This document shows positions 1-13,921 of a DNA stretch of 13,921 bases, one piece after another. The notes below the pieces were generated by a model. It made no database searches. It worked only from the letters and a program-made list of their open reading frames with translations, and had not been told where the DNA came from. Source of the stretch: a bacterium (GTDB taxonomy: Bacteria > UBP15 > UBA6099 > DSWB01); contig JAGUYV010000394.1 of the NCBI GenBank assembly GCA_020061125.1, positions 1 to 13,921 on the forward strand, in the 5' to 3' direction. Position numbers and translations under genes: made by a program. Position 1 is the first letter of the stretch, and every line of letters begins with the position of its first letter.

Positions 1-1974
1 GTTACATCCGTGACCCGGCTGCCGGACAGAAGCGTGTTCAATTCGCCCGCGGCCATTTATGTGATCAGCCAGGATGACATCCGGCGCAGCGGCTTGTTGC
101 AGATTCCCGAGATTATGCGGCTGGCGCCCGCCATGCAGGTGGAGCGCGTGGACGCGGGCACATGGTCCATTTCTGCGCGCGGGTTCAACAACCGGTACAA
201 CCGCCTGCAACGCGTGCAGATGGACGGCCGTTCCCTCACCGACATCCTGTTCGGCGGCGTGTACTGGGCCAATCAGGACGCGGTGATTGACGACCTGGAC
301 CGCATCGAGGTCATCAGCGGCCCGGGCGCGTCCCTGTGGGGTTCCAACGCCATCAACGGCGTCATCAGCATCATCTCCAAGCCCGCCAGGGAAACCCAGG
401 GCTGGCTCGTGAAATCCCACTCCGGAGACGCGGAACGCGGCATCGGAACCATCCGCTACGGCGGCCGCCTCGGTCCGGACACTTTCTTCCGCCTCTACGC
501 CAAGCATGAGGAGCACGGCAATTTCGACACCTACACATACAACAACGCCCTTTACAATTCGCCTTATGTAAACCAGTACACCGAAGACAAGTCCGACGAT
601 CTGTATTCCTATCAGGACGGGTACCGCAGACAGCAGTTCGGGTTCCGCGCGGACTGGGAGAACCGGGGCGCGGACACATTCACTTTTCAGGGCGACGCCT
701 GCAGGCTTATGAAAGGTGACTCCATCGCCTACGCCAACTACACCGTGCTGGCCAATCCCCTGGGCCTGCCGCCCTCGGGATACGCCTCTCAAAAGGAAGC
801 CGACGGCTGGAATGTCCTGGGCCGATGGAACCGAGAGCTGTCCGAAACCTCGGGCTTCAAACTCCAGATGTTCGTGGACTGGAACGCGCAGAAATACCTG
901 AACCCGCTTACCCCGCACTCGGATAAAAAGCGGGTGTCGGAAATTGATTTTCAGCACTATTTCCGCGCGGGCCGCGGACACGACATCCTGTGGGGTGCGC
1001 AATACCGGCACGACCGCATGCGCGTGAGCACCAACATGCTCACCTACACGCCGGAAACCGATTCGTTCAACAACGAAACCATCAGCGGATTTGTTCAGGA
1101 CTCCTTCAAATTCCTGTCGCCCGAGATGCTCATGACCGTGGGCGCGAAAATCGAGAAGAACGACTTCACGGGCGAGGAACTCCAGCCCAGCATGCGGCTC
1201 ACTTATACGCCCAACCAGGACAATGTGGTGTGGACCGCCGTGTCCAAGGCCGTGAAAGTGCCGGGCAACGAAACCCGCGCCAATTACAATGTGGGCGGCG
1301 CCAATGTGCCCGCCAATTCCCTGGGCGCGGGTAACCCGCCCATTGACATGTGGATGCCCTTCACTCTGCAGGGAAATCCCAGGGTGCAGGAAGAGGAATT
1401 CATCGCCTACGAACTCGGCTACAGAACGCGGCCGCGAGCGGATCTCACCCTGGACATGACCGCGTTCGCGCACCGGGGGCACCACCTGCAGCGTACCGAG
1501 GTCGTCACCGCCGTGCCTTATGTGGTCACCCTGGTGAGCAAGGGCGTGGCGCACTACGAAGGCTTCGAGCTGTCCGCCACCTGGACTCCTGCGCCGCGCT
1601 GGCGCCTGGCCGGGGGATACACATGGTTCTCGGCCGATGAAAAAACGGCCGGCGCTCTGCCCGTGTCAGATGAAACGCCCAGAAATCAGGCGCAACTGCG
1701 CTCGTATTACGACATAAACCCCAACCTCGAATTCAACACAGCATTGTACTACCAGGACAACATCCGCCACCCGGACATCAAGCTCCCCAAATCTCTGCGT
1801 TTGGATGCGGGCTTAACATGGAAAAACCAGAGCAAGGGATACGAATGCAAGGTCTGGGGCCGCAATCTCATGGATCCTAAATACCGCGAAGGATTCCCGG
1901 ACCGGTATTCATCCCTGGGCGCGGCGCAGGTTGAGCGCAATTTCAGCATTGAAATGAACTGGAATCTGCCGTAA
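1..1974 (+). CDS. TonB-dependent outer-membrane receptor (5' partial)
   Basis: Outer-membrane active-transport or sensing receptor; the substrate cannot be told from sequence. The frame is open from base 1, so the gene starts upstream: signal peptide, TonB box and the first plug residues are missing, and the GTG at base 10 is not the real start. The visible 657 residues begin inside the plug. Plug hallmarks are ARGFNNRYNRLQRVQMDGRS at about residues 59-78, then GGVYW and the DRIEVISGPGASLWGSNAING segment up to about residue 122, typical of family plug domains. The rest is aromatic-rich alternating sequence as expected for a 22-strand barrel, ending with FSIEMNWNLP. A yfiR-like gene follows 47 bases later on the same strand with no terminator between, so the two are probably co-transcribed. 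This linkage suggests a signalling or regulated-uptake receptor (inference). The family call is secure; the ligand is unknown. Confidence 0.93.
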   Translation, partial: VTSVTRLPDRSVFNSPAAIYVISQDDIRRSGLLQIPEIMRLAPAMQVERVDAGTWSISARGFNNRYNRLQRVQMDGRSLTDILFGGVYWANQDAVIDDLDRIEVISGPGASLWGSNAINGVISIISKPARETQGWLVKSHSGDAERGIGTIRYGGRLGPDTFFRLYAKHEEHGNFDTYTYNNALYNSPYVNQYTEDKSDDLYSYQDGYRRQQFGFRADWENRGADTFTFQGDACRLMKGDSIAYANYTVLANPLGLPPSGYASQKEADGWNVLGRWNRELSETSGFKLQMFVDWNAQKYLNPLTPHSDKKRVSEIDFQHYFRAGRGHDILWGAQYRHDRMRVSTNMLTYTPETDSFNNETISGFVQDSFKFLSPEMLMTVGAKIEKNDFTGEELQPSMRLTYTPNQDNVVWTAVSKAVKVPGNETRANYNVGGANVPANSLGAGNPPIDMWMPFTLQGNPRVQEEEFIAYELGYRTRPRADLTLDMTAFAHRGHHLQRTEVVTAVPYVVTLVSKGVAHYEGFELSATWTPAPRWRLAGGYTWFSADEKTAGALPVSDETPRNQAQLRSYYDINPNLEFNTALYYQDNIRHPDIKLPKSLRLDAGLTWKNQSKGYECKVWGRNLMDPKYREGFPDRYSSLGAAQVERNFSIEMNWNLP

Positions 1975-2021
1975 CGCAGCGGCACGCACAGGGGATTCCA
2001 GCGAACCGGACAGGCGCGCAT

Positions 2022-2708
2022 TTGAAAGACGGTAAACGCATACAACTCATTCACGGCAAGACACTTTGGCGCACGGCGCTTGCTTTGTTGTGCGCGGTTG
2101 TCTGCGCCTGTGCCGCGGGCCGCGCCGTGGCCAGGGAATCGGCCGCGGAACGCGAGGCCAAACTCCGCGCCGGGTTCCTGTACCATCTGGCCAAGCTCGT
2201 TACCTGGGAAAAGGATCGCTTCACGGATGACAAAGCGCCCATCATTGTTGGCTTCCTGGGCGACGCCATGCCCGAACTGCCCGATTATTTCGAATCGCAG
2301 GCCCCCTCTTACAAGGCCCAGAACCGGGACATGCTCGTGCGCCGGTTCAAACTGCCCGCGCCCGATGCAGACAAGGCCGTGATCCAGAAGCGCATCGGGG
2401 AAATCCAGCGCTGCCACATCCTCTATGTGCCCCGTGAGCTTGAACGGGACATCCAGAAATTCCCCGGCCTGTTCAACGCCAGGGGTACGCTCATCGTGGG
2501 CGAAACCCGCGGCTTCGCCGAAAAGCAGGGCATGATCGGACTCGAAATCGTCAAGGGCCGCATCGTGATTTTCGTGAATCGCGGGAACCTCAAGCGCGGG
2601 CAACTGGCGGTCAGCGCGCAGTTTCTTCAGCACGCCATCCAGGTGGACTCGAAATCTGAAGGCGCGGGAACGGGCCAGAAGAACTCGCAGGAGCGGCAGA
2701 AACATTGA
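2022..2708 (+). CDS. YfiR-family (DUF4154) periplasmic signalling protein
   Basis: Predicted periplasmic regulator of 228 residues. The start is TTG with only a weak AGG at 2012-2014; no ATG lies in frame before the domain, so the start is uncertain. Residues 1-37 form an export signal: a basic N-region, the core LWRTALALLCAVVCACAAG and a likely cut after AVA. Cys-28 and Cys-30 do not form a good lipobox. The DUF4154 domain spans about 45-208: KLRAGFLYHLAKLVTW, IVGFLGD, a conserved RCHILYVP strand, TLIVGETRGFAEKQGMIGLE and a terminal helix ending in FLQHAI. The tail (211-228) is polar and low in complexity. In Pseudomonas and E. coli, YfiR binds and represses the membrane cyclase YfiN. Here the next gene, overlapping by one base, is a kinase with a YfiN-like periplasmic domain, so that kinase is the likely partner (inference). 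Confidence 0.85.
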   Translation: MKDGKRIQLIHGKTLWRTALALLCAVVCACAAGRAVARESAAEREAKLRAGFLYHLAKLVTWEKDRFTDDKAPIIVGFLGDAMPELPDYFESQAPSYKAQNRDMLVRRFKLPAPDADKAVIQKRIGEIQRCHILYVPRELERDIQKFPGLFNARGTLIVGETRGFAEKQGMIGLEIVKGRIVIFVNRGNLKRGQLAVSAQFLQHAIQVDSKSEGAGTGQKNSQERQKH

Positions 2709-4957
2709 TGAAATCGCTGATCGGCAACATGACCTTTCGCAGGAAGGTGCTGTTCTTCGCTGCGGCGGTCAGCCTGTTGTCCCTGTTCCTGGTGTGTTCC
2801 GCAATCGTGGGCTACGATGTGTCCACTTTCCGCCGCTCCCTGGTGGAAACCGCATCGGCCGAAGCCGACATCCTGGCCAAATCCGCGGCCTCGGCAATCG
2901 TTTTTTTTGATGCGGACTTCGCCTCCAGAGTGCTGGGCGGCCTGGAAGCCGAACCGAATGTGTCGGCCGCATGCATTTACACCACGGACGGAACGGTCTT
3001 CGCCCGCTACGCACGCGGCAAACAGGGGGCCGCGTGTCCGAAAAAGCCTGGCGCAAACGGCCATGCATTCCTGTCGTCGCATCTGGATGTATACCGCCCA
3101 GTGCTGTTCGAGGGCGAACCCGTGGGCACGATCTTCATTCGCACAAACACCGGCGCGCTGGCCGCGCGCGTGCGCAATTTCATCATTATTGTGCTCATCG
3201 CCATGGCCGTTTCCCTGTTCGCCGCCATGATGGCTTCATATGTTTTCCAGAAGGCGCTCACAAAGCCCGTCATGGAACTGGCCAAAACTGCGCGCAGAGT
3301 GTCCGGAGGCAACGATTACAGCGCCCGCGCCCAGGTGTACGGCAACGACGAACTGGGCGAGCTTACCAACACCTTCAACCAGATGCTCGACCAGATCCAG
3401 GCGCGCGACGCGGACCTGCGCCGCAGCGAGGAACAGAACCGGTCCCTGCTCGAAAGCCTGGACATCGGCGTGTCTCTGATTGACGAGAATTATGAAATTC
3501 TCATGGCCAACCCCGAGTACTGTCGCAGGGCAGGCATGACGCACGACGAAATCCTGGGCCAGAAGTGTTATTGTGCCATGAACAAAGTCGAAGAATTATG
3601 CCCGGAGTGCCCGGGCCGCGAGACTCTGCGCACAGGCCGCCGCGCGGAGAAAATCCTGGAGAAAACCGGTCCGGACGGCAAACCCATGTTTCTGCGCCTG
3701 CACACCTATCCGCTGTTCAACGACCGGGGCGGGGTGCGCGGATTCATCACCCTGTCCGAAGACATCACCCGAGACAAAATCGAGGAACAGGAGAAAGAAG
3801 CGCTGCGCGGGCAGCTTCTCCAGGCGCAGAAAATGGAAGCCGTGGGCCAGCTCGCAGGCGGCATGGCGCACGACTTCAACAATATGCTGGCCGTCATCAT
3901 GGGCAACGCCAGCATGGGCCAGGTGCAGACCTCGCCCGCGGACCCCAACTTCGACCGTTTCAACCGCATCCTCGACGCGTCCGACCGCGCGCGCGCGCTC
4001 ACTCTCAAGCTGCTCACCTTCTCCCGCAAGGAGCAGATCAATGTGCGGGACGTCTGGATGCACACCGTGCTCGATGAACTGGTGGGCATGCTCTCGCGCA
4101 CCGTGGACAGAAGCATCGCCATCAAAACCCTGGTCCACCACAGATGCCTGGTGCATATTGACAAGAACCAGATTCAGCAGGCGCTTCTTAATGTGTGCAA
4201 CAACGCCGTGGATGCCATGCCCGGCGGCGGAACCCTGACCCTGGAGTGCAGCCGCCATACATTCGACGGCTCCGTGTGCCGCGAATGCGGCAAGCGCAGT
4301 TCCGGCGATTTCTGCATGATCCAGATCTCGGACACGGGCGTGGGCATGAGCGACGAAGTGCGCAAGAAGATCATGGAGCCTTTCTTCACCACCAAGGGCC
4401 TGGGCAAGGGCACGGGTCTGGGCCTGTCCGTGACCCACGGCATCGTCGAGGGGCACGAAGGACACATTCACATTTACAGCGAGATCAACGCTGGAACCTG
4501 CGTGAGAATATATCTGCCCATGTCTCGCGCCGCGGCTGAAACCGGGCAGGATCCGGCCGAGCGCAGGATTCACACAGGCACGGAGACCGTGCTTGTGGTG
4601 GACGACGAACCCGGCGTGCTGGACACTGCGGCCGCATTGCTCGAACAGGCCGGATACACGCCCATCCGCGCCATGGGCGGCGATGAGTGCCTGGAAATCA
4701 TCAAAGCGGGCGATGGGGACATTGACCTGGTGCTCCTGGACATGGTCATGCCGGGCCTGTCCGGCAGCGCCTTGTACGATGAATTAAAGAAGCTCGCACC
4801 CGGAATTCCCGTGCTGCTTTCCTCGGGATTCAGCGTGAACGGACAGGCGGGCAAGCTGCTGGAAAAAGGCGTGCAGGGCTTTGTGCAGAAACCGTTCGAC
4901 ATTTTCGCGCTCACCAGGGCGATCCGCGAAGTGCTGGACAAGCCGGATCAGGCCTGA
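2708..4957 (+). CDS. Membrane hybrid histidine kinase: CHASE8-like sensor, HAMP, PAS, HisKA, HATPase, REC
   Basis: Inner-membrane sensor kinase of 749 residues that would autophosphorylate and pass phosphate to its own receiver. Order: TM1 about 14-35; periplasmic domain about 38-152, with FRRSLVETASAEADILAKSA, NVSAACIYTTDG and FEGEPVGTIFI, resembling the CHASE8 sensor of YfiN; TM2 157-180; HAMP 181-233; PAS about 243-355 with a Cys cluster (C287, C289, C298, C301); HisKA with H388 in GGMAHDFNN; HATPase with N495/N499, D542 (DTGVGMS) and GKGTGLGLS 566-574; receiver 626-745 with DD632-633, phospho-acceptor D678 and K728. All key residues are present. I chose the ATG at 2708, which forms TGATG with the preceding stop; a TTG at 2705 would add one residue. 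A purine-rich GCAGGAG lies at 2687-2693. No DNA-binding output domain is present, so a separate Hpt or regulator may act downstream. Confidence 0.93.
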   Translation: MKSLIGNMTFRRKVLFFAAAVSLLSLFLVCSAIVGYDVSTFRRSLVETASAEADILAKSAASAIVFFDADFASRVLGGLEAEPNVSAACIYTTDGTVFARYARGKQGAACPKKPGANGHAFLSSHLDVYRPVLFEGEPVGTIFIRTNTGALAARVRNFIIIVLIAMAVSLFAAMMASYVFQKALTKPVMELAKTARRVSGGNDYSARAQVYGNDELGELTNTFNQMLDQIQARDADLRRSEEQNRSLLESLDIGVSLIDENYEILMANPEYCRRAGMTHDEILGQKCYCAMNKVEELCPECPGRETLRTGRRAEKILEKTGPDGKPMFLRLHTYPLFNDRGGVRGFITLSEDITRDKIEEQEKEALRGQLLQAQKMEAVGQLAGGMAHDFNNMLAVIMGNASMGQVQTSPADPNFDRFNRILDASDRARALTLKLLTFSRKEQINVRDVWMHTVLDELVGMLSRTVDRSIAIKTLVHHRCLVHIDKNQIQQALLNVCNNAVDAMPGGGTLTLECSRHTFDGSVCRECGKRSSGDFCMIQISDTGVGMSDEVRKKIMEPFFTTKGLGKGTGLGLSVTHGIVEGHEGHIHIYSEINAGTCVRIYLPMSRAAAETGQDPAERRIHTGTETVLVVDDEPGVLDTAAALLEQAGYTPIRAMGGDECLEIIKAGDGDIDLVLLDMVMPGLSGSALYDELKKLAPGIPVLLSSGFSVNGQAGKLLEKGVQGFVQKPFDIFALTRAIREVLDKPDQA

Positions 4958-5069: not shown

Positions 5070-5816
5070 TCAGAAGCCCAGCTTGCCCTTGCCCGGAATT
5101 TTCTCCTTGAGCTTGTCTTTCTGCTCATTGAGCTGGTTCATGAGTTTCTCTTTAACCGCGCCCACGGAAATCTGGTCTTTCCATGCGTCCAGATTCTTCT
5201 TGAATTCGCCGATATCGAATTCCAGGAGTTCGAGCTGCACGCCCTGGAGCAGGTCCACGGCGAACCCGGCTTCGGCCAGCACTTCGCCCAGGTCGTTGAT
5301 GATGGCGACCACGCCGTCGAGCACATTGACCTTGGCCTTGCCTTCTTTATCCACGGCCACATTGAACTCGGTCCCCCGGACTGCGACCACGCCGGACGGG
5401 GTGCCCACTTTGAACTCCGCGCCGTCGCCCATGATCTCTTTGTCCAGGGTGGTGAACAGTTCGCCCATGTCCATGTCAATGGAGTCGGGGTTTTCCGCGC
5501 CCTCGTTCTGTTTCACGGTCACGGTGGTCTCGGCGTTCAGCTTCATTTCCACGCCTTTGCCGTACTTGATGGCGGCGCCGCTCTCGGCGAGGGTGCGCAC
5601 GCGGTCGCCCTGGTTGAGGCACTTGTTGAGTTCACCGGCCTGCCAGGCTTCCTTGTCTTCCGCGTCCGCGGCCTGAAATTCCACGGTGCCCGCGATGCCC
5701 GCGAGGTACGCGTAGCAATCAGGCGGCGCGGCGGCCTCTTCCTCGGCCAGAACCGGGAGCGCGGCCAGGCACGCCATCACGGCCAGCAGCGCGAACAGTC
5801 TCATTGCCCTTGTCAT
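5070..5816 (-). CDS. Exported FecR-domain protein
   Basis: Small periplasmic or secreted protein of 248 residues. The ATG at 5816 is chosen because GGAGG (5826-5830) sits nine bases upstream and because residues 1-24 form a clean signal peptide (MTRAMRLFALLAVMACLAAL, cut after VLA). The open frame runs further up to 5906, but that ATG lies at the predicted transcription start. The FecR domain occupies about 37-190: AYLAGIAGTVEFQ, a GDRVRTLAESGAAI strand pair and the family signature TPSGVVAVRGTEFNV at 139-153. The C-terminal 50 residues are charged and helical, ending in a basic KGKLGF tail. True FecR anti-sigma regulators have a cytoplasmic N-domain and a membrane helix; neither is present, and no ECF sigma factor is nearby, so this is a stand-alone FecR-fold protein, perhaps a ligand- or envelope-binding factor. 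Precise function unknown. Confidence 0.85.
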   Translation of the reverse strand: MTRAMRLFALLAVMACLAALPVLAEEEAAAPPDCYAYLAGIAGTVEFQAADAEDKEAWQAGELNKCLNQGDRVRTLAESGAAIKYGKGVEMKLNAETTVTVKQNEGAENPDSIDMDMGELFTTLDKEIMGDGAEFKVGTPSGVVAVRGTEFNVAVDKEGKAKVNVLDGVVAIINDLGEVLAEAGFAVDLLQGVQLELLEFDIGEFKKNLDAWKDQISVGAVKEKLMNQLNEQKDKLKEKIPGKGKLGF

Positions 5817-5909
5817 GCGAAAAAACCTCCCTGTGCTGTGTCGGGCCGGAGCCTCACGGCTGTCACACCGCATGACGCTTTTCCGCCCCTCTGGATTGAT
5901 CACCATAAA

Positions 5910-6001: not shown

Positions 6002-6052
6002 CATTGAATGCAGACCCGAAGCGCATTTTCCCCCGGCAGGTTTTTAAGGCGC

Positions 6053-6553
6053 ATGAAAGTTGATTACCTGAACCCGTTTCTGAACTCCATCGTTCAGATC
6101 GTACAGTCGCAGTTGTACGAAAATCCGCAGCGCGGGCGGATTTATCTGCGCACGGAATATCCGTACCGCGCCGGGGAAGTGGCGATCATCGTGGGCATCA
6201 CCGGCGCGGTGCAGGGCCAGGTGGCGCTGTCCATGAGCCGGAGCGCGGCCCTTGCCGCAGCCGCGCGCATGATGATGGAAGACGCTCTGGACGATCTTGA
6301 TGAGTACGCGCAGAGCGCTTTGTCCGAAATGGCGAACATGATCACGGCCAACGCCACCATCGCGCTGGCCGATGCGGGGTTTTCCTGCGACATCACGCCC
6401 CCGTCCTTGATCGTGGGCAGTGACATTCGAATCAGTCCCCGCGAAAGCATCAAAACAATCGTGATTCCCCTGGAATTGACCGTGGGCGCCATCGAGGTCA
6501 ACCTGTCCCTTGAAGAAGCGCCCGCCGGCGCACAGGCCATGTCCCCGAATTGA
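6053..6553 (+). CDS. CheX-like CheY-P phosphatase
   Basis: Cytoplasmic protein of 166 residues in the CheC/CheX/FliY phosphatase superfamily, which removes phosphate from receiver domains such as CheY. The start at 6053 gives the usual CheX N-terminus (MKVDYLNPFLNSIVQIV) and follows AAGG (6046-6049) closely; the frame is open back to an ATG at 6008, which would add 15 atypical residues. The middle contains the catalytic helix motif: S88, E92 and N95 in SALSEMANMITANA match the (D/S)xxxExxN phosphatase signature. Strands GEVAIIVGITGAVQGQVALS (41-60) and the C-terminal TIVIPLELTVGAIEVNLSL fit the family fold. No chemotaxis or flagellar genes are visible; it sits between two hybrid kinases whose receivers are possible substrates (inference). 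It converges on the soluble kinase gene with an eight-base gap. Confidence 0.85.
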   Translation: MKVDYLNPFLNSIVQIVQSQLYENPQRGRIYLRTEYPYRAGEVAIIVGITGAVQGQVALSMSRSAALAAAARMMMEDALDDLDEYAQSALSEMANMITANATIALADAGFSCDITPPSLIVGSDIRISPRESIKTIVIPLELTVGAIEVNLSLEEAPAGAQAMSPN

Positions 6554-6561
6554 TGCGCGGC

Positions 6562-8619
6562 TTATTCATCTGTCCCGGACGGATGCACAACCCTCTGAAT
6601 CGCCTCGAACATTTCTGACAGCAGGAAGGGTTTCTGGATGTAGGCTACAGCACCCTGCTCGAGCAGCGCGGCCGCCTTGCCTTTCTGGCTGTGCCCGGAA
6701 CACAGGATTACGGTTGCGTCCGGCCGCAGTTCCTTGAGGGCGCGGAAAATCGCGGTCCCGTCCATGTCCGGAAGGATCATGTCCAGAATCACCGCGTCAA
6801 CAAGCTCCATATTGGTTTTGAACGCTTCCAGGGCCTGCGGCCCCGAATGCGTGGCGATAACATCATAGCCTTCGCTTTCCAGGGCTTCCTCGATCATGCC
6901 GTTGAAGTCGGTATCGTCGTCAATCACGAGTATGGTGCCTTTGCCGAATCCGCGCGCCGCGGCGCATTGCGGATCCGCATCCGGCTCTTCACAAGGCGCC
7001 GCTTCCGGGAGAAACACGCGGAACATGGTCCCCTGTCCGGGCGCGCTCTGCACGGAAATGAACCCGTTGTGCTCATGCACGATGCCATGGGTCACGGACA
7101 GGCCCAGGCCCGTGCCTTTGCCCGGCTCCTTGGTTGTGAAGAACGGATCGAAGATTTTGCGCAGCGACGCATCGTCCATGCCGTGGCCCGAGTCCTTGAT
7201 GGAAACCACGCAGTACGCGCCGGGCCGCGCGCAGGCTTCGTGCGCTTCGCCGGAGCCTACCGCCGCGCGCCCGGTTTCAATGTCAACGGCGCCGCCCTCG
7301 GGCATGGCTTCGCAGGCGTTGAGGCAGATGTTCAGCAGCGCCTGCAGGATCTGGTTCGTGTCCGCGTGGATGTGAAGATCTGGTTCGAGCGCGCGAGTTC
7401 TGATGGCTATGCCCCGTGAAATCGTTCCGCGCAGCATGTCCGTAAGATCCGCAATCACCGCATCGAGCGCCACGGTCCGGGTCTGGAGTTTTTCCTTGCG
7501 CGCGAAGGTGAGCAGCTTCATGGAAAGATCCCGTGCGCGCAGACCGGATTTGATGATGCGTTCGAGCCTTGCGTAATCCGGAGACTCGGGATGCTTGGAC
7601 TTGAGCATCATTTCCGCAGTGCCGTTGATGGCCGCGATGATGTTGTTGAAGTCGTGAGCGATGCCCCCGGCGAGGGTGCCGATGGCTTCCATTTTTTGCG
7701 CCTGTTGAAGCTGCTGCTGGAGATTCTGCTTCTCGGCTTCCTCGCGTTTCCTTTGGGAGATGTCCCGCACGATTCCCGATGCGTTCCATTCTCCCTTGAG
7801 CCGGATCGGGGTCAGCGTGAGTTCGGCTGGGAATTCCTCACCGTTTTTTCTCACGGCGGCCAGCTCCACAGTTTTTCCGGTGAAAGAGCCTCGGCCCGTT
7901 TCGCGGAATGAGTCGAAAACACGCCTGAACGCCTGGCGTTGTTCCCCGGGCGCGATGAGATCGTGGAGGTCCCGGCCCGCGGCCTCGGACTCGGAATAGC
8001 CGAACATGGCTTCCGCGGCGTTGTTCCAGAACGATACGCAGCCGCGGGCGTCCATCAAGATGACCGCGTTGTGCGCGGACCGGCAGATGGCGGAGAATTT
8101 CTCTTCGCTTTCCCGCAACTGCTCTTCGGCGCGGACCCGCGCCAGGATATCTCCGACCTGATTGCCGATCGTCTCCAGAGCCTGGGACGCGATGCCGGGG
8201 ATCTCATCGGAGGCGGCGGTGCCGATATTCATGCAGCCGATGACTTCGCCGTTGTGTTTGAACGGGATGACCGCGAGCGCCCTGTAAAATTCCGCGCCCG
8301 AGGCGGTCACGGCCCTGGGCATCGGGGTTTTGCCTTGGCAGAAATATATGGGTTCACCCTGCATCAGAACCTGCACGCGGGGCGAATCTTTGTCGAAATG
8401 GCTTACGGCTCTGACGAATTCATCCGGCAGCCCTTTGTGGCACAGCATATCTATGCCGCCATTCCGGTCCACCAGATAAATGCCTCCCAGCTCCATGCCG
8501 GCGGCGTCCATGGCCGCTTGCACGCAAATCTGCAGGGCTTCGGTGAGAGACGATGTCTTGCCCAGACGGCAGGATAGTTCATTCTGGATTTTCAGTATCT
8601 TTAAGGCGTGCTCACTCAT
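6562..8619 (-). CDS. Soluble hybrid histidine kinase: GAF, PAS, HisKA, HATPase, REC
   Basis: Cytoplasmic sensor kinase of 685 residues; no membrane segment is visible. The ATG at 8619 is chosen because a promoter with a perfect -10 box places transcription near 8660; a TTG at 8652 would leave almost no leader. Order: GAF about 18-162 (ALQICVQAAMDAAGMELGGI, then ALAVIPFKHNGEVIGCMNIG); PAS about 172-290 (AVILMDARGCVSFWNNAAE, FGYSESEAAG) ending in the usual GIVRDISQRK linker; Gln-rich coiled linker 295-312; HisKA with H322 in GGIAHDFNN; HATPase with N430/N434, D476 (KDSGHGM) and GKGTGLGLS 500-508; receiver about 562-680 with D567-D569, phospho-acceptor D613 and K663. All catalytic residues are intact. 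The kinase core resembles that of the membrane hybrid kinase upstream (LTFxRKE, GKGTGLGLSVTHGIV), so the two may be paralogues. The input signal is unknown. Confidence 0.94.
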   Translation of the reverse strand: MSEHALKILKIQNELSCRLGKTSSLTEALQICVQAAMDAAGMELGGIYLVDRNGGIDMLCHKGLPDEFVRAVSHFDKDSPRVQVLMQGEPIYFCQGKTPMPRAVTASGAEFYRALAVIPFKHNGEVIGCMNIGTAASDEIPGIASQALETIGNQVGDILARVRAEEQLRESEEKFSAICRSAHNAVILMDARGCVSFWNNAAEAMFGYSESEAAGRDLHDLIAPGEQRQAFRRVFDSFRETGRGSFTGKTVELAAVRKNGEEFPAELTLTPIRLKGEWNASGIVRDISQRKREEAEKQNLQQQLQQAQKMEAIGTLAGGIAHDFNNIIAAINGTAEMMLKSKHPESPDYARLERIIKSGLRARDLSMKLLTFARKEKLQTRTVALDAVIADLTDMLRGTISRGIAIRTRALEPDLHIHADTNQILQALLNICLNACEAMPEGGAVDIETGRAAVGSGEAHEACARPGAYCVVSIKDSGHGMDDASLRKIFDPFFTTKEPGKGTGLGLSVTHGIVHEHNGFISVQSAPGQGTMFRVFLPEAAPCEEPDADPQCAAARGFGKGTILVIDDDTDFNGMIEEALESEGYDVIATHSGPQALEAFKTNMELVDAVILDMILPDMDGTAIFRALKELRPDATVILCSGHSQKGKAAALLEQGAVAYIQKPFLLSEMFEAIQRVVHPSGTDE

Positions 8620-8666
8620 GGCGCTGCTGCTTCCGTGTTTGCGTGAATGCAATGAGTATTTGACAA

Positions 8667-10728: not shown

Positions 10729-13700
10729 TCAATCGCCTTTGACGCGGTATGCCTGCTTCATGGGGTAATCCCCCTCGACCGCCACGCGGAACTGCCACTT
10801 GAAGTTGTGCTGGCTGACCTTGAGAAGGATCTCGTTCGGCCCCTTCTTGAGATGCGCTTTGACAATGTCCGTGGCGGTCTCCATGCCGCGCCATCCGGAC
10901 CGGCTCAACACCTTTTCCCCGTTCACCCACATCTCGGACGCGTCGTCGCTGTTGAGGCGGAAGGTGGCGTCCTGCTCCTCTCTGGAAACGAGATAGGTGA
11001 CGGCGTAGGCGATGGCGTTGTCGCGGTGCAGGTTGTAGTAATGCTCTTGGAGATCCACCACTCCGTCGGCCCCGGCCCTGGCTTTGCGCCACGCCACGCC
11101 CGTGGCGTTCTCCGCGCTGCTGGTTTTGTGCACGGCGTCGAAATCCACGCCGTCAAGTTCCGGCCCGAACTTGCTGTCCGGCAATTCGCCCCGGCCGTAG
11201 TCGAATGGGCCAACCACGGTCCATCTGTCCAGCCAGTGGTTGTGCGTGCTCATCACGCCAGACACGCTGAAGGGCTTGCCGTTGACGGTGAAGTCCGCCT
11301 GGATGATGTTCTGGAGGCGCATGCCGAACTCGGGCGGCGCCGGGGGCAGCTTGAAGTCCTGCGCGTCATAGCGGCCGGGCCGGTCCGCAATGTAGTCTTT
11401 GGACGCCAGGTCCTTGCGCGTGGCGCCGTACAGCTCCACCACCTTGAGCGTGAATTTGTTTCCGTCAAACAGGCCGGGCGCGGCGTAGAAGTACGCGCGT
11501 GGGAAGCTCTTGTAGTAATAGAGCGAGTCGTTTTTCTCGAATACGCCTGCGCCCGCGATGGCGAGCAGGGTGTCCAGGAACGGCCCGGAGGGGTACTCGT
11601 TGCTGTAGGAAACGGCTTCATTCTTGATGTTGCCGGGATCCGCGGCCTTTTCGCCGAGCAGGCCCTTGAGGCGGCGTTCCGCGGCCTTGCGTTTCAGCAA
11701 CTCCGGATCCGCGTCCGCGGCCACGGCCAGAATTTCGTGCCCGTTGCGGATGTCCATGGCCGGAATGCGGATGCGGTTCATCATGGCCGTTTCGTCGTAC
11801 TCGACTGCCGTGGCGGTTTCAAAATCGCCCCCGCCGCCGGGCAGCATGGTTTTTACGGTTGCGGACCGGGCTTTTTGCGTGAAGGGCAGCTCCACGATCA
11901 CGGCGCGCTTCTGGGGCTGGCCCTGGAACGACCCTGCGGCCGGACCCACGCTCACCCGGATTTCATCGCCCTTGCGCCACGCCTTGAGCGCGGTCTCTGC
12001 GTACTCACCCTGGAGATACCGTGTGGTGACACCGTCGTCTTCATAAAGCGTGAATTCGCCCGTTGCGCCGTCCGCGGCCGGGAACACGCGCACCACAAGC
12101 TCGTCGAGCGGCGCCGTGGCCATGCGCTCACGGTACGGCTGCATGGGGATGGGAACCCCGGCGCGCGCGTAGAGTGGGAATTCGTCAATGGTTCCGGCCG
12201 CCAGCGCCTCGTCGCCGCCCTCGAATCGTTCGCCCGTGAACCAGTTCACCCAGCGGCCCTCGGGGAACCACACCACTTGCGCGCCCACGCGCTCCGGCCC
12301 TTTGCCTTCGCTCACAATCGGCGCGGCCAGAAGCGCGTCTCCGAAATAATACTGCTGCGGATTCACATAGGAACGGGCGTCTTCGGGATGCGCCATATAC
12401 ATGGCGCGGTTCATGGGCATGGAATCCCGAAAGCACTGCCGCGCCGTGGAGTAGATGTAAGGGAACAGCTCGGAGCGCAAGTGGAAGGCGGAGCGCATGG
12501 CGGTTTCGGCCCATGACTGGTACTTCCAGGGGCGGCGGTCCAGCTCGGGGTTGCGCGTGGAGTGCGAGCGCAGGGCCGCGGTGGTGGCGCCGAACTGGGT
12601 CCAGCGTACATAGGACTCGGGGATGCGCCTGCCCATGTGGCCGCCGATGTCGTGCGACCAGTAGAACACGCCCACATTGCCTGCGAGCGAAGTGAACGGC
12701 ACCATGAACTGGAGCATGGCGAATTCCGTGGACGAGTCGCCGCTGAAGTGCACGGGATAGCGGTGGTCGCCGAATCCGGCGTAGCGGCTGAAGCTCTGCC
12801 CGCGCAGACCCGCACGCCCCGTGTGCGTGTAATAGTAATGGTTCAGAATGCGCAGGTTGGTGAGGCCCGGCACGCTGCGCGTGTACGGATACTGCTGCCA
12901 GTCCAGCCACCAGAAATCCACGCCCGCGGCTTCCTTGTCCATATGCGTGTGTTTGAACAGTGTGTCCAGATATTTCTTGCTGCCCGCGTCAAAAGGAACC
13001 GTTTGCCCCTTTGACGGATCCTCGCCCAGATCCTTCATGAACGCCGCGTACATGTCCTCGTGTTTTCCCACGCCGTCGGCCGGATGCACATTCAGGGTCG
13101 TGTGCAGTCCCTTTTCGTGGAACCACTGGAGCAGGTCCTCGGCGTCGGGCAGCAGCTTGCGGTTCCAGGACCAGCCCGTCCACCCGTCCTTGTGCCAGTC
13201 CATGTCCAGCACCATGACATCCAGGGGGAAATCGTGGTTGTGGTATTCGGCCACGATCTCGCGGTACTCCTTGCTGGTGTAGGGCCAGTAGCGGCTGTAC
13301 CACACGCCCAGGGAGTATTTGCGGGGCAGGGGAACCGGGCCGCCGATCTTTGTCATGGCCTTCAGCCCGGCCCGATAGTCGTGCCCGTAGCCGAACAGAT
13401 ACCAGTCCGTGCCCGATCCCGCGGGCCGCTCCTGCACCCAGTCCTTTGTGAACAGGTGCATGTCCGAGTCATCGTGCAGAAACCAGCCGTCGCGGGACAA
13501 AAACCCTTGCCCCAGGTCCACGGGTTCACCCACGCCGTCCACGGTGCGGATGGTGCCGCCCAGGTTGCCCGTGTTCTCCATGCCGGGTTTCCACACCACC
13601 GCGGCGCCGCCGTCAAGCTTGATCTCCGCCGACAGGTTGTCCTCGCTGAACGGCTTCCCGTCGTCGTTGTGCGTGAGAAGGATTTTTCCGGTGTCAATCA

Positions 13701-13921
13701 CAAGCGGGTTGCGCGCGCGGCCCAGGGCGAAGCCCGTGAACGCCGCGCTACGGTCCGCCGCGAACATGGACGGGGCGTCCACAAACGCGCCGGATTCCGA
13801 ATACTCCATGCGGATCAACTCGGGCGCGATGATTGTAAACCGCGCCTTGCCGTGCACGATAATGTGATCCGCGTCCGCGCGCGCGCCCGCGCACGGCCAC
13901 GCCACGGCCGCGGCCAGGGCC
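10729..13921 (-). CDS. Exported GH31 glycoside hydrolase with extra C-terminal modules (5' partial)
   Basis: Large secreted or periplasmic retaining alpha-glycosidase of family GH31. The first in-window codons read ALAAAVAWPCAGARADADH, the end of a signal peptide, so the start lies past the right edge and the GTG at 13905 is internal. Counting from that GTG (1058 residues): N-terminal beta-sandwich about 12-175; (beta/alpha)8 barrel about 195-520, starting at LPRKYSLGVWYSRYWPY; probable nucleophile D335 in DFWWLDWQQ (codon 12901-12903); probable acid/base D390 in HFSGDSSTEF (codon 12736-12738); beta-sandwich and DUF5110-like region to about 735. Residues 735-890 are unassigned. From 895, WTVVGPFDYG through LNSDDASEMWVNGE to GPNEILLKVSQ looks like a PA14- or galactose-binding-like module. 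Typical alpha-glucosidases have WxDMNE at the nucleophile, so substrate specificity is open (glucoside, xyloside, galactosaminide or other). Confidence 0.92.
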   Translation of the reverse strand, partial: ALAAAVAWPCAGARADADHIIVHGKARFTIIAPELIRMEYSESGAFVDAPSMFAADRSAAFTGFALGRARNPLVIDTGKILLTHNDDGKPFSEDNLSAEIKLDGGAAVVWKPGMENTGNLGGTIRTVDGVGEPVDLGQGFLSRDGWFLHDDSDMHLFTKDWVQERPAGSGTDWYLFGYGHDYRAGLKAMTKIGGPVPLPRKYSLGVWYSRYWPYTSKEYREIVAEYHNHDFPLDVMVLDMDWHKDGWTGWSWNRKLLPDAEDLLQWFHEKGLHTTLNVHPADGVGKHEDMYAAFMKDLGEDPSKGQTVPFDAGSKKYLDTLFKHTHMDKEAAGVDFWWLDWQQYPYTRSVPGLTNLRILNHYYYTHTGRAGLRGQSFSRYAGFGDHRYPVHFSGDSSTEFAMLQFMVPFTSLAGNVGVFYWSHDIGGHMGRRIPESYVRWTQFGATTAALRSHSTRNPELDRRPWKYQSWAETAMRSAFHLRSELFPYIYSTARQCFRDSMPMNRAMYMAHPEDARSYVNPQQYYFGDALLAAPIVSEGKGPERVGAQVVWFPEGRWVNWFTGERFEGGDEALAAGTIDEFPLYARAGVPIPMQPYRERMATAPLDELVVRVFPAADGATGEFTLYEDDGVTTRYLQGEYAETALKAWRKGDEIRVSVGPAAGSFQGQPQKRAVIVELPFTQKARSATVKTMLPGGGGDFETATAVEYDETAMMNRIRIPAMDIRNGHEILAVAADADPELLKRKAAERRLKGLLGEKAADPGNIKNEAVSYSNEYPSGPFLDTLLAIAGAGVFEKNDSLYYYKSFPRAYFYAAPGLFDGNKFTLKVVELYGATRKDLASKDYIADRPGRYDAQDFKLPPAPPEFGMRLQNIIQADFTVNGKPFSVSGVMSTHNHWLDRWTVVGPFDYGRGELPDSKFGPELDGVDFDAVHKTSSAENATGVAWRKARAGADGVVDLQEHYYNLHRDNAIAYAVTYLVSREEQDATFRLNSDDASEMWVNGEKVLSRSGWRGMETATDIVKAHLKKGPNEILLKVSQHNFKWQFRVAVEGDYPMKQAYRVKGD

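Follow-up and report, generated by a model that had tools for sequence, protein, structure and literature searches.

A candidate outer-membrane-to-cytoplasm signaling operon encoding a TonB receptor, a YfiR-like protein, and a CHASE8 hybrid kinase

Introduction

How bacteria relay the presence of an extracellular ligand across both membranes is understood well in only a handful of cases, of which Fec-type sigma signaling is the main one. A bacterial locus that encodes a TonB-dependent receptor, a YfiR-like periplasmic protein, and a membrane-bound hybrid sensor kinase raises the question of whether these proteins could form another such route, and of how that route would relate to systems already described. 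The locus lies in what we call the window, the whole 13,921-nucleotide stretch of DNA that was analyzed, which is one entire contig of a 4.1-Mb assembly (513 contigs, 79% complete). An earlier reading of the sequence, here called the original prediction, proposed a new pathway in which a YfiR system takes its input from a TonB receptor and delivers it to a phosphorelay. We found this reading to be partly supported: it is largely right in anatomy, unproven in mechanism, and overstated in novelty.

Results

The three genes lie in series on the same strand (Table 1). As originally described, a gap of 47 bases lies between the end of the receptor reading frame at 1974 and the TTG start of the YfiR-like frame at 2022, and the kinase ATG at 2708 shares one base with the YfiR-like TGA (TGATG); an alternative kinase start is the TTG at 2705. 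Because the first base of the window is the first base of the contig, the N-terminus of the receptor is missing. What remains includes the plug domain at 37-363 (Pfam Plug, 3.5e-15), and the first residues, VTSVT, match the end of an EVTSVS segment that precedes the plug in relatives.

Table 1. Features of the receptor, YfiR-like, and kinase genes in the window
Feature	Position	Strand	Basis
TonB-dependent receptor, TOL_0244 type, 657 residues, N-terminus lost	1-1974	+	Pfam Plug, NCBIfam NF053590, tree
YfiR-like periplasmic protein (DUF4154), 228 residues	2022-2708	+	Pfam, NCBIfam NF053591, Foldseek
Signal peptide of the YfiR-like protein	about 2022-2135	+	
DUF4154 domain	2160-2636	+	Pfam
Hybrid sensor kinase, membrane-bound, TM-CHASE8-TM-HAMP-PAS-HisKA-HATPase-REC	2708-4957	+	Pfam, NCBIfam NF053592
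CHASE8 periplasmic sensor domain	2831-3139	+	4.2e-17, genome search
SAIVF, counterpart of YfiN AAVVF	2891-2905	+	Motif comparison
HAMP	3251-3403	+	Pfam 7.1e-13
PAS	3434-3772	+	Pfam PAS_9 1.2e-12, PAS_4 1.5e-11
HisKA and HATPase_c; H box HDFNN with His at 3869-3871; N, G1, F, and G2 boxes intact	3845-4525	+	Pfam, motifs
C-terminal receiver; phospho-acceptor Asp in LLDMVMP at 4739-4741	4589-4924	+	Pfam Response_reg 1.7e-20, motifs

The original prediction called the kinase YfiN-like, with a periplasmic domain at residues 38 to 152. This region matches CHASE8 and no other sensor family in Pfam (PF17152, residues 43 to 145; 4.3e-16, 59.4 bits, passing the gathering cut-off of 27), and it is followed in order by HAMP, PAS, HisKA, HATPase_c, and Response_reg. 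The predicted fold agrees: an AlphaFold model of the sensor region (pLDDT 92) begins with a long helix, continues with a PAS/Cache-like sheet, and ends in another long helix that runs into HAMP, placing the PAS/Cache-like domain between two membrane helices. The PDB neighbors of this model include the periplasmic domains of LapD-type proteins and CitA; a PDB search by sequence with the CHASE8 alignment gave no match. The receiver has intact motifs (acidic pair, phospho-acceptor Asp, Ser, and Lys).

The middle protein had been read as YfiR-like, which both its family and its predicted fold bear out. It passes the gathering cut-off of Pfam PF13689, DUF4154 "YfiR/HmsC-like" (3.7e-22; 79.4 bits against 24.9), and the best 15 PDB matches of its AlphaFold model (pLDDT 90) are Pseudomonas YfiR structures, with Foldseek E values down to 2.9e-07 and TM-scores of up to 0.79 by target length, indicating a YfiR fold. 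Weaker matches of the same model are to periplasmic substrate-binding proteins. In the YfiR tree the window protein sits on a very long branch; it has an extra stretch of about 13 to 16 residues, and Ile183 occupies the position of the central Phe162 of YfiR, where relatives have Leu (50%), Phe (30%), or Ile (14%). There is one cysteine in the mature protein and therefore no internal disulfide.

A YfiR fold, a CHASE8-HAMP membrane protein encoded in the same operon, and a hydrophobic stretch implicated in YfiR binding are all shared with YfiBNR (TpbB, Pseudomonas aeruginosa), HmsCDE, and AwsXRO. In YfiN this stretch is AAVVF, and mutations in it abolish control by YfiR (PMC3375315). The Phe of the AAVVF/SAIVF stretch is kept in 97% of 119 YfiR-linked CHASE8 domains. 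Judging from the homology of both partners and from this conserved contact stretch, YfiR very probably acts on the kinase through CHASE8. The systems differ at both ends, since YfiBNR has the OmpA-like lipoprotein YfiB where the window has a TonB receptor, and a GGDEF diguanylate cyclase where the window has a histidine kinase and receiver. Among the window proteins scanned with Pfam, none is an OmpA/Pal-like YfiB lipoprotein, and Pfam found no GGDEF domain on the CHASE8 protein but HisKA, HATPase_c, and REC instead. The two substitutions at the heart of the original prediction, a TonB receptor as the outer-membrane partner and a complete hybrid kinase rather than a cyclase as the output, are thus both present.

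All three proteins also have their best or specific match in an NCBIfam trio with the same gene order. Release 20 of NCBIfam holds models for a TOL_0244 receptor (NF053590), a TOL_0243 YfiR-like protein (NF053591), and a YfiR-associated kinase (NF053592, "sensor histidine kinase, YfiR-like protein-associated"). Of the three window proteins, the kinase scores 204.4 bits, over the cut-off of 194, and differs in being a hybrid with a C-terminal receiver. The receptor (463.7 bits, E 1e-138) and the YfiR-like protein (63.2 bits, E 2.5e-17, over 1-149 of 150) fall below their equivalog cut-offs of 645 and 125, respectively. Truncation does not account for the shortfall of the receptor, because its match spans positions 15-603 of the 604 in the profile. 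We consider it almost certain that the trio is a divergent member of this TOL_0244/TOL_0243/YfiR-associated-kinase system (TOL_0242-0244 type).

A profile search of the host genome found one DUF4154 domain and one CHASE8 domain in the whole assembly, and these are neighbors; the pair adjoins one of four plug domains. Because the sole DUF4154 and the sole CHASE8 of the genome adjoin beside one of its four plugs, in an order that recurs across phyla, we regard the trio as more than a coincidence. DUF4154 was absent from all six sampled genomes of the same taxonomic order, so of the sampled genomes only this one gained or retained the module. Five HPt domains are encoded in the host genome, as is one ExbD. 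A search for TonB_C at E 1e-3 gave none there, the assembly being 79% complete; four plugs and an ExbD without TonB_C point either to a gap in the incomplete assembly or to a TonB_C that is too divergent.

The idea that the receptor-DUF4154-kinase order occurs in this genome only did not survive a genome survey, in which the order was conserved across phyla. The survey looked for DUF4154 in two genome sets, a draw of 386 taken mostly across the domain and 395 from a single phylum, and neighborhoods were read for the loci of both genome sets plus 80 named loci, with identical domains removed. The named relatives came from a tighter YfiR alignment; two broader alignments gave no usable pattern, and a scan of genome contigs with the window YfiR sequence alone returned no relatives. 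Outside the window, 100 loci extended for 2.5 kb or more to either side; in 79 of them DUF4154 is directly preceded by a TonB receptor and directly followed by CHASE8 (36 of 53 loci from the genome sets and 43 of 47 named loci, the latter biased, unlike the former, because they were selected for their resemblance to one YfiR subfamily). By record titles, the trio occurs in Gemmatimonadota, Acidobacteriota, Verrucomicrobiota, Bacteroidota, Fibrobacterota, and Pseudomonadota. Within the 386-genome draw, CHASE8 exceeded the cut-off in 28 of the 32 genomes with DUF4154 versus 8 of the 354 without it (Fisher p 3e-31, which is only indicative since the genomes are related), and 24 of 43 CHASE8 domains over the cut-off start at most 400 bases downstream of DUF4154. 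The conserved order shows functional linkage, not the direction of signaling.

Several apparent departures from this order were rejected on inspection. A TonB-DUF4154 fusion in locus L152 comes from a reading frame that crosses N stretches and a frame change, and the length of a DUF4154 reading frame in L100 is due to a spurious extension upstream, in a different frame. Two loci that seemed to lack a receptor have one: L091 encodes Plug and barrel, and in L144 the receptor is split over two reading frames. Separately, CHASE8 kinases can also occur without a neighboring YfiR gene: at loci L204-L208, no DUF4154 lies within several kilobases of the CHASE8 hybrid kinase.

The output of the CHASE8 protein is exchangeable, being a kinase, a hybrid kinase, or a chemoreceptor. 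Among 119 linked CHASE8 genes (the window included), 62 encode a kinase, 42 encode a kinase and receiver, and 15 showed neither; most of these 15 are cut by contig ends, and the 4 scanned by Pfam are methyl-accepting chemotaxis proteins. Output type switches at least 18 times on the weakly resolved YfiR tree. A GGDEF domain was seen in none of the 119, a count made with a model seeded with five sequences and in a sample that holds few close relatives of Pseudomonas and Escherichia. It is in these two genera that YfiN occurs. Loci L199 (8842-11151) and L200 (Verrucomicrobium) have the receptor-YfiR-CHASE8 order with a chemoreceptor (MCP) output.

The receptor is itself a dedicated subfamily tied to YfiR. 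In the single-phylum set of 395 genomes, the 23 genomes with DUF4154 at E<1e-30 are precisely those that encode receptor homologues (E<1e-40); there are no such homologues in the eight genomes that have only a weaker DUF4154 type and none in the 364 without DUF4154, and wherever contig ends permit checking, every homologue adjoins DUF4154. In a tree of 72 receptors, a branch of length 0.82 with 100% SH-aLRT support holds 50 YfiR-linked receptors, that of the window included, plus two tandem copies. The other three receptors of the host fall outside it, as do most unlinked receptors, and only one of those three matches the trio receptor, weakly (28% over 172 residues). A second, looser group of linked receptors pairs with other YfiR types. 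A chance adjacency of three unrelated genes would fit the six same-order genomes without DUF4154, yet the conserved order across phyla and this perfect co-occurrence in one phylum already refute it, and it deserves practically no credence. As a side observation, two tandem TonB receptors of the linked subfamily precede one YfiR gene at loci L086 and L092, as if sharing one repressor.

Given a TonB receptor as the outer-membrane input, which Fec-type systems (FecA-FecR-FecI) likewise use, we considered whether the receptor signals through an N-terminal domain to a FecR-like anti-sigma factor, with the YfiR and kinase genes incidental. The gene at 5070-5906 (-) does encode a FecR domain (Pfam, 1.1e-12). 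However, it is convergent, and its product is a secreted protein with a signal peptide that, by its domains, is closer to leptospiral LipL45/Lsa33 than to an anti-sigma factor; the window operon has no sigma/anti-sigma pair, nor is there a sigma factor among the window genes scanned against Pfam. The window receptor is truncated, and in four full-length relatives the N-terminal Fec-type signaling domain is absent, leaving Plug and barrel only. A Fec-type mechanism is therefore highly improbable, and these relatives favor the distinction from Fec-type signaling drawn in the original prediction.

Another possibility reverses the direction: YfiR and CHASE8 would sense the state of the envelope (redox, peptidoglycan, or stress), and the receptor would only be a co-transcribed target of the kinase. 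In keeping with this, P. aeruginosa YfiR responds to the periplasmic redox state without YfiB (PMC3375315), and at most loci the receptor gene is the first of the operon. The single mature cysteine of the window protein, which precludes an internal disulfide, speaks against this direction, and the receptor subfamily and YfiR are co-inherited far more tightly than a mere target needs; we consider this reading improbable.

The strongest competitor accepts the receptor as input but makes it an ordinary transporter. The imported ligand would bind YfiR, the true sensor, and alter its grip on CHASE8, with no contact between receptor and YfiR. In YfiR structures, the pocket that YfiB uses is occupied by vitamin B6 or L-Trp, albeit with affinities of tens of millimolar (PMC4887326), and both the weaker match of the YfiR-like model to substrate-binding proteins and the ExbD of the host genome are consistent with import followed by sensing. 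The lack of a detected TonB_C in that genome counts against it. A receptor subfamily tied to YfiR fits a specific partner, although it is compatible with import as well; on balance, we regard import followed by sensing as rather unlikely.

Discussion

The explanation that we favor, as the probable one, is an outer-membrane-to-cytoplasm signaling operon in which a YfiR-like protein would repress the kinase and a receptor would relieve the repression. Like YfiR acting on YfiN, the YfiR-like protein would bind CHASE8 around SAIVF and hold the kinase in one signaling state. Once bound to the receptor, a ligand (perhaps a molecule of low solubility such as a long-chain alkane) would then alter the periplasmic side of the receptor or be delivered, upon which YfiR would release CHASE8. 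Phosphorylation of the kinase and receiver would pass to an HPt protein and a response regulator, which we place elsewhere in the genome because neither is encoded within the operon in the window. That the receptor acts upstream, through YfiR, is likely from gene order and the dedicated subfamily. We infer both that YfiR makes physical contact with the kinase or the receptor and that phosphorylation is controlled. The N-terminal motif of the linked receptors, LS-LEQLMN-EVTSVS, might serve as a docking site for YfiR, which we offer as an idea.

The original prediction went too far in presenting the pathway as new. According to Malone et al. (2012), YfiB is missing from most distant YfiR-YfiN pairs, whose outputs are GGDEF-EAL, HPt, histidine-kinase, or MCP; the authors proposed a modular YfiR-YfiN core and already included a hybrid kinase output in Thauera, with YfiR and without YfiB (PMC3375315). 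YfiR with a kinase output and no YfiB is thus common to those pairs and the window, whereas TonB receptors are not mentioned in that paper; NCBIfam, for its part, names all three partners. We found no paper that unites TonB receptor, YfiR, and kinase, nor an experiment on the trio, in the non-subscription literature that was searched. The system is recognized but experimentally almost unstudied, and what the window contributes to it is a divergent member, not a kind of its own. As a compact second candidate for signaling through two membranes, the trio offers named partners and a testable contact site. We tentatively suggest that it may exemplify a third general route from an outer-membrane receptor to the cytoplasm, in which, in many phyla, a dedicated TonB receptor would release or capture YfiR on ligand binding and so switch a CHASE8 protein with exchangeable output.

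The only characterized relative of the receptor suggests a role in sensing alkanes or other poorly soluble molecules, a role that would matter for hydrocarbon degraders. In Thalassolituus oleivorans, TOL_0244 rises sevenfold on n-C28 relative to Tween 80; its similarity to OmpS of Alcanivorax dieselolei, which is reported as needed for alkane detection, is 40.3% (PMC6304351). Both are receptors of the window subfamily tied to long-chain alkane detection, but that paper describes no YfiR or kinase partner for them. The MCP output at L199 and L200 fits the reported link of OmpS to alkane chemotaxis. An alkane-like ligand in the host organism of the window, by analogy with TOL_0244 and OmpS, is nevertheless doubtful.

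Other genes of the window merit brief mention. A CheX-like phosphatase gene (6008-6553, +; Pfam CheX, 7.9e-21), whose product could dephosphorylate a receiver, lies beyond the trio, and no other chemotaxis genes were seen in the window. Convergent with it and near the trio is the gene for a second hybrid kinase (6562-8652, -), a soluble GAF-PAS-HisKA-HATPase-REC protein that is also of the HDFNN type. Farther along, a family 31 glycoside hydrolase (10729-13905, -) has a long C-terminal extension that weakly matches PA14 and sugar-binding domains.
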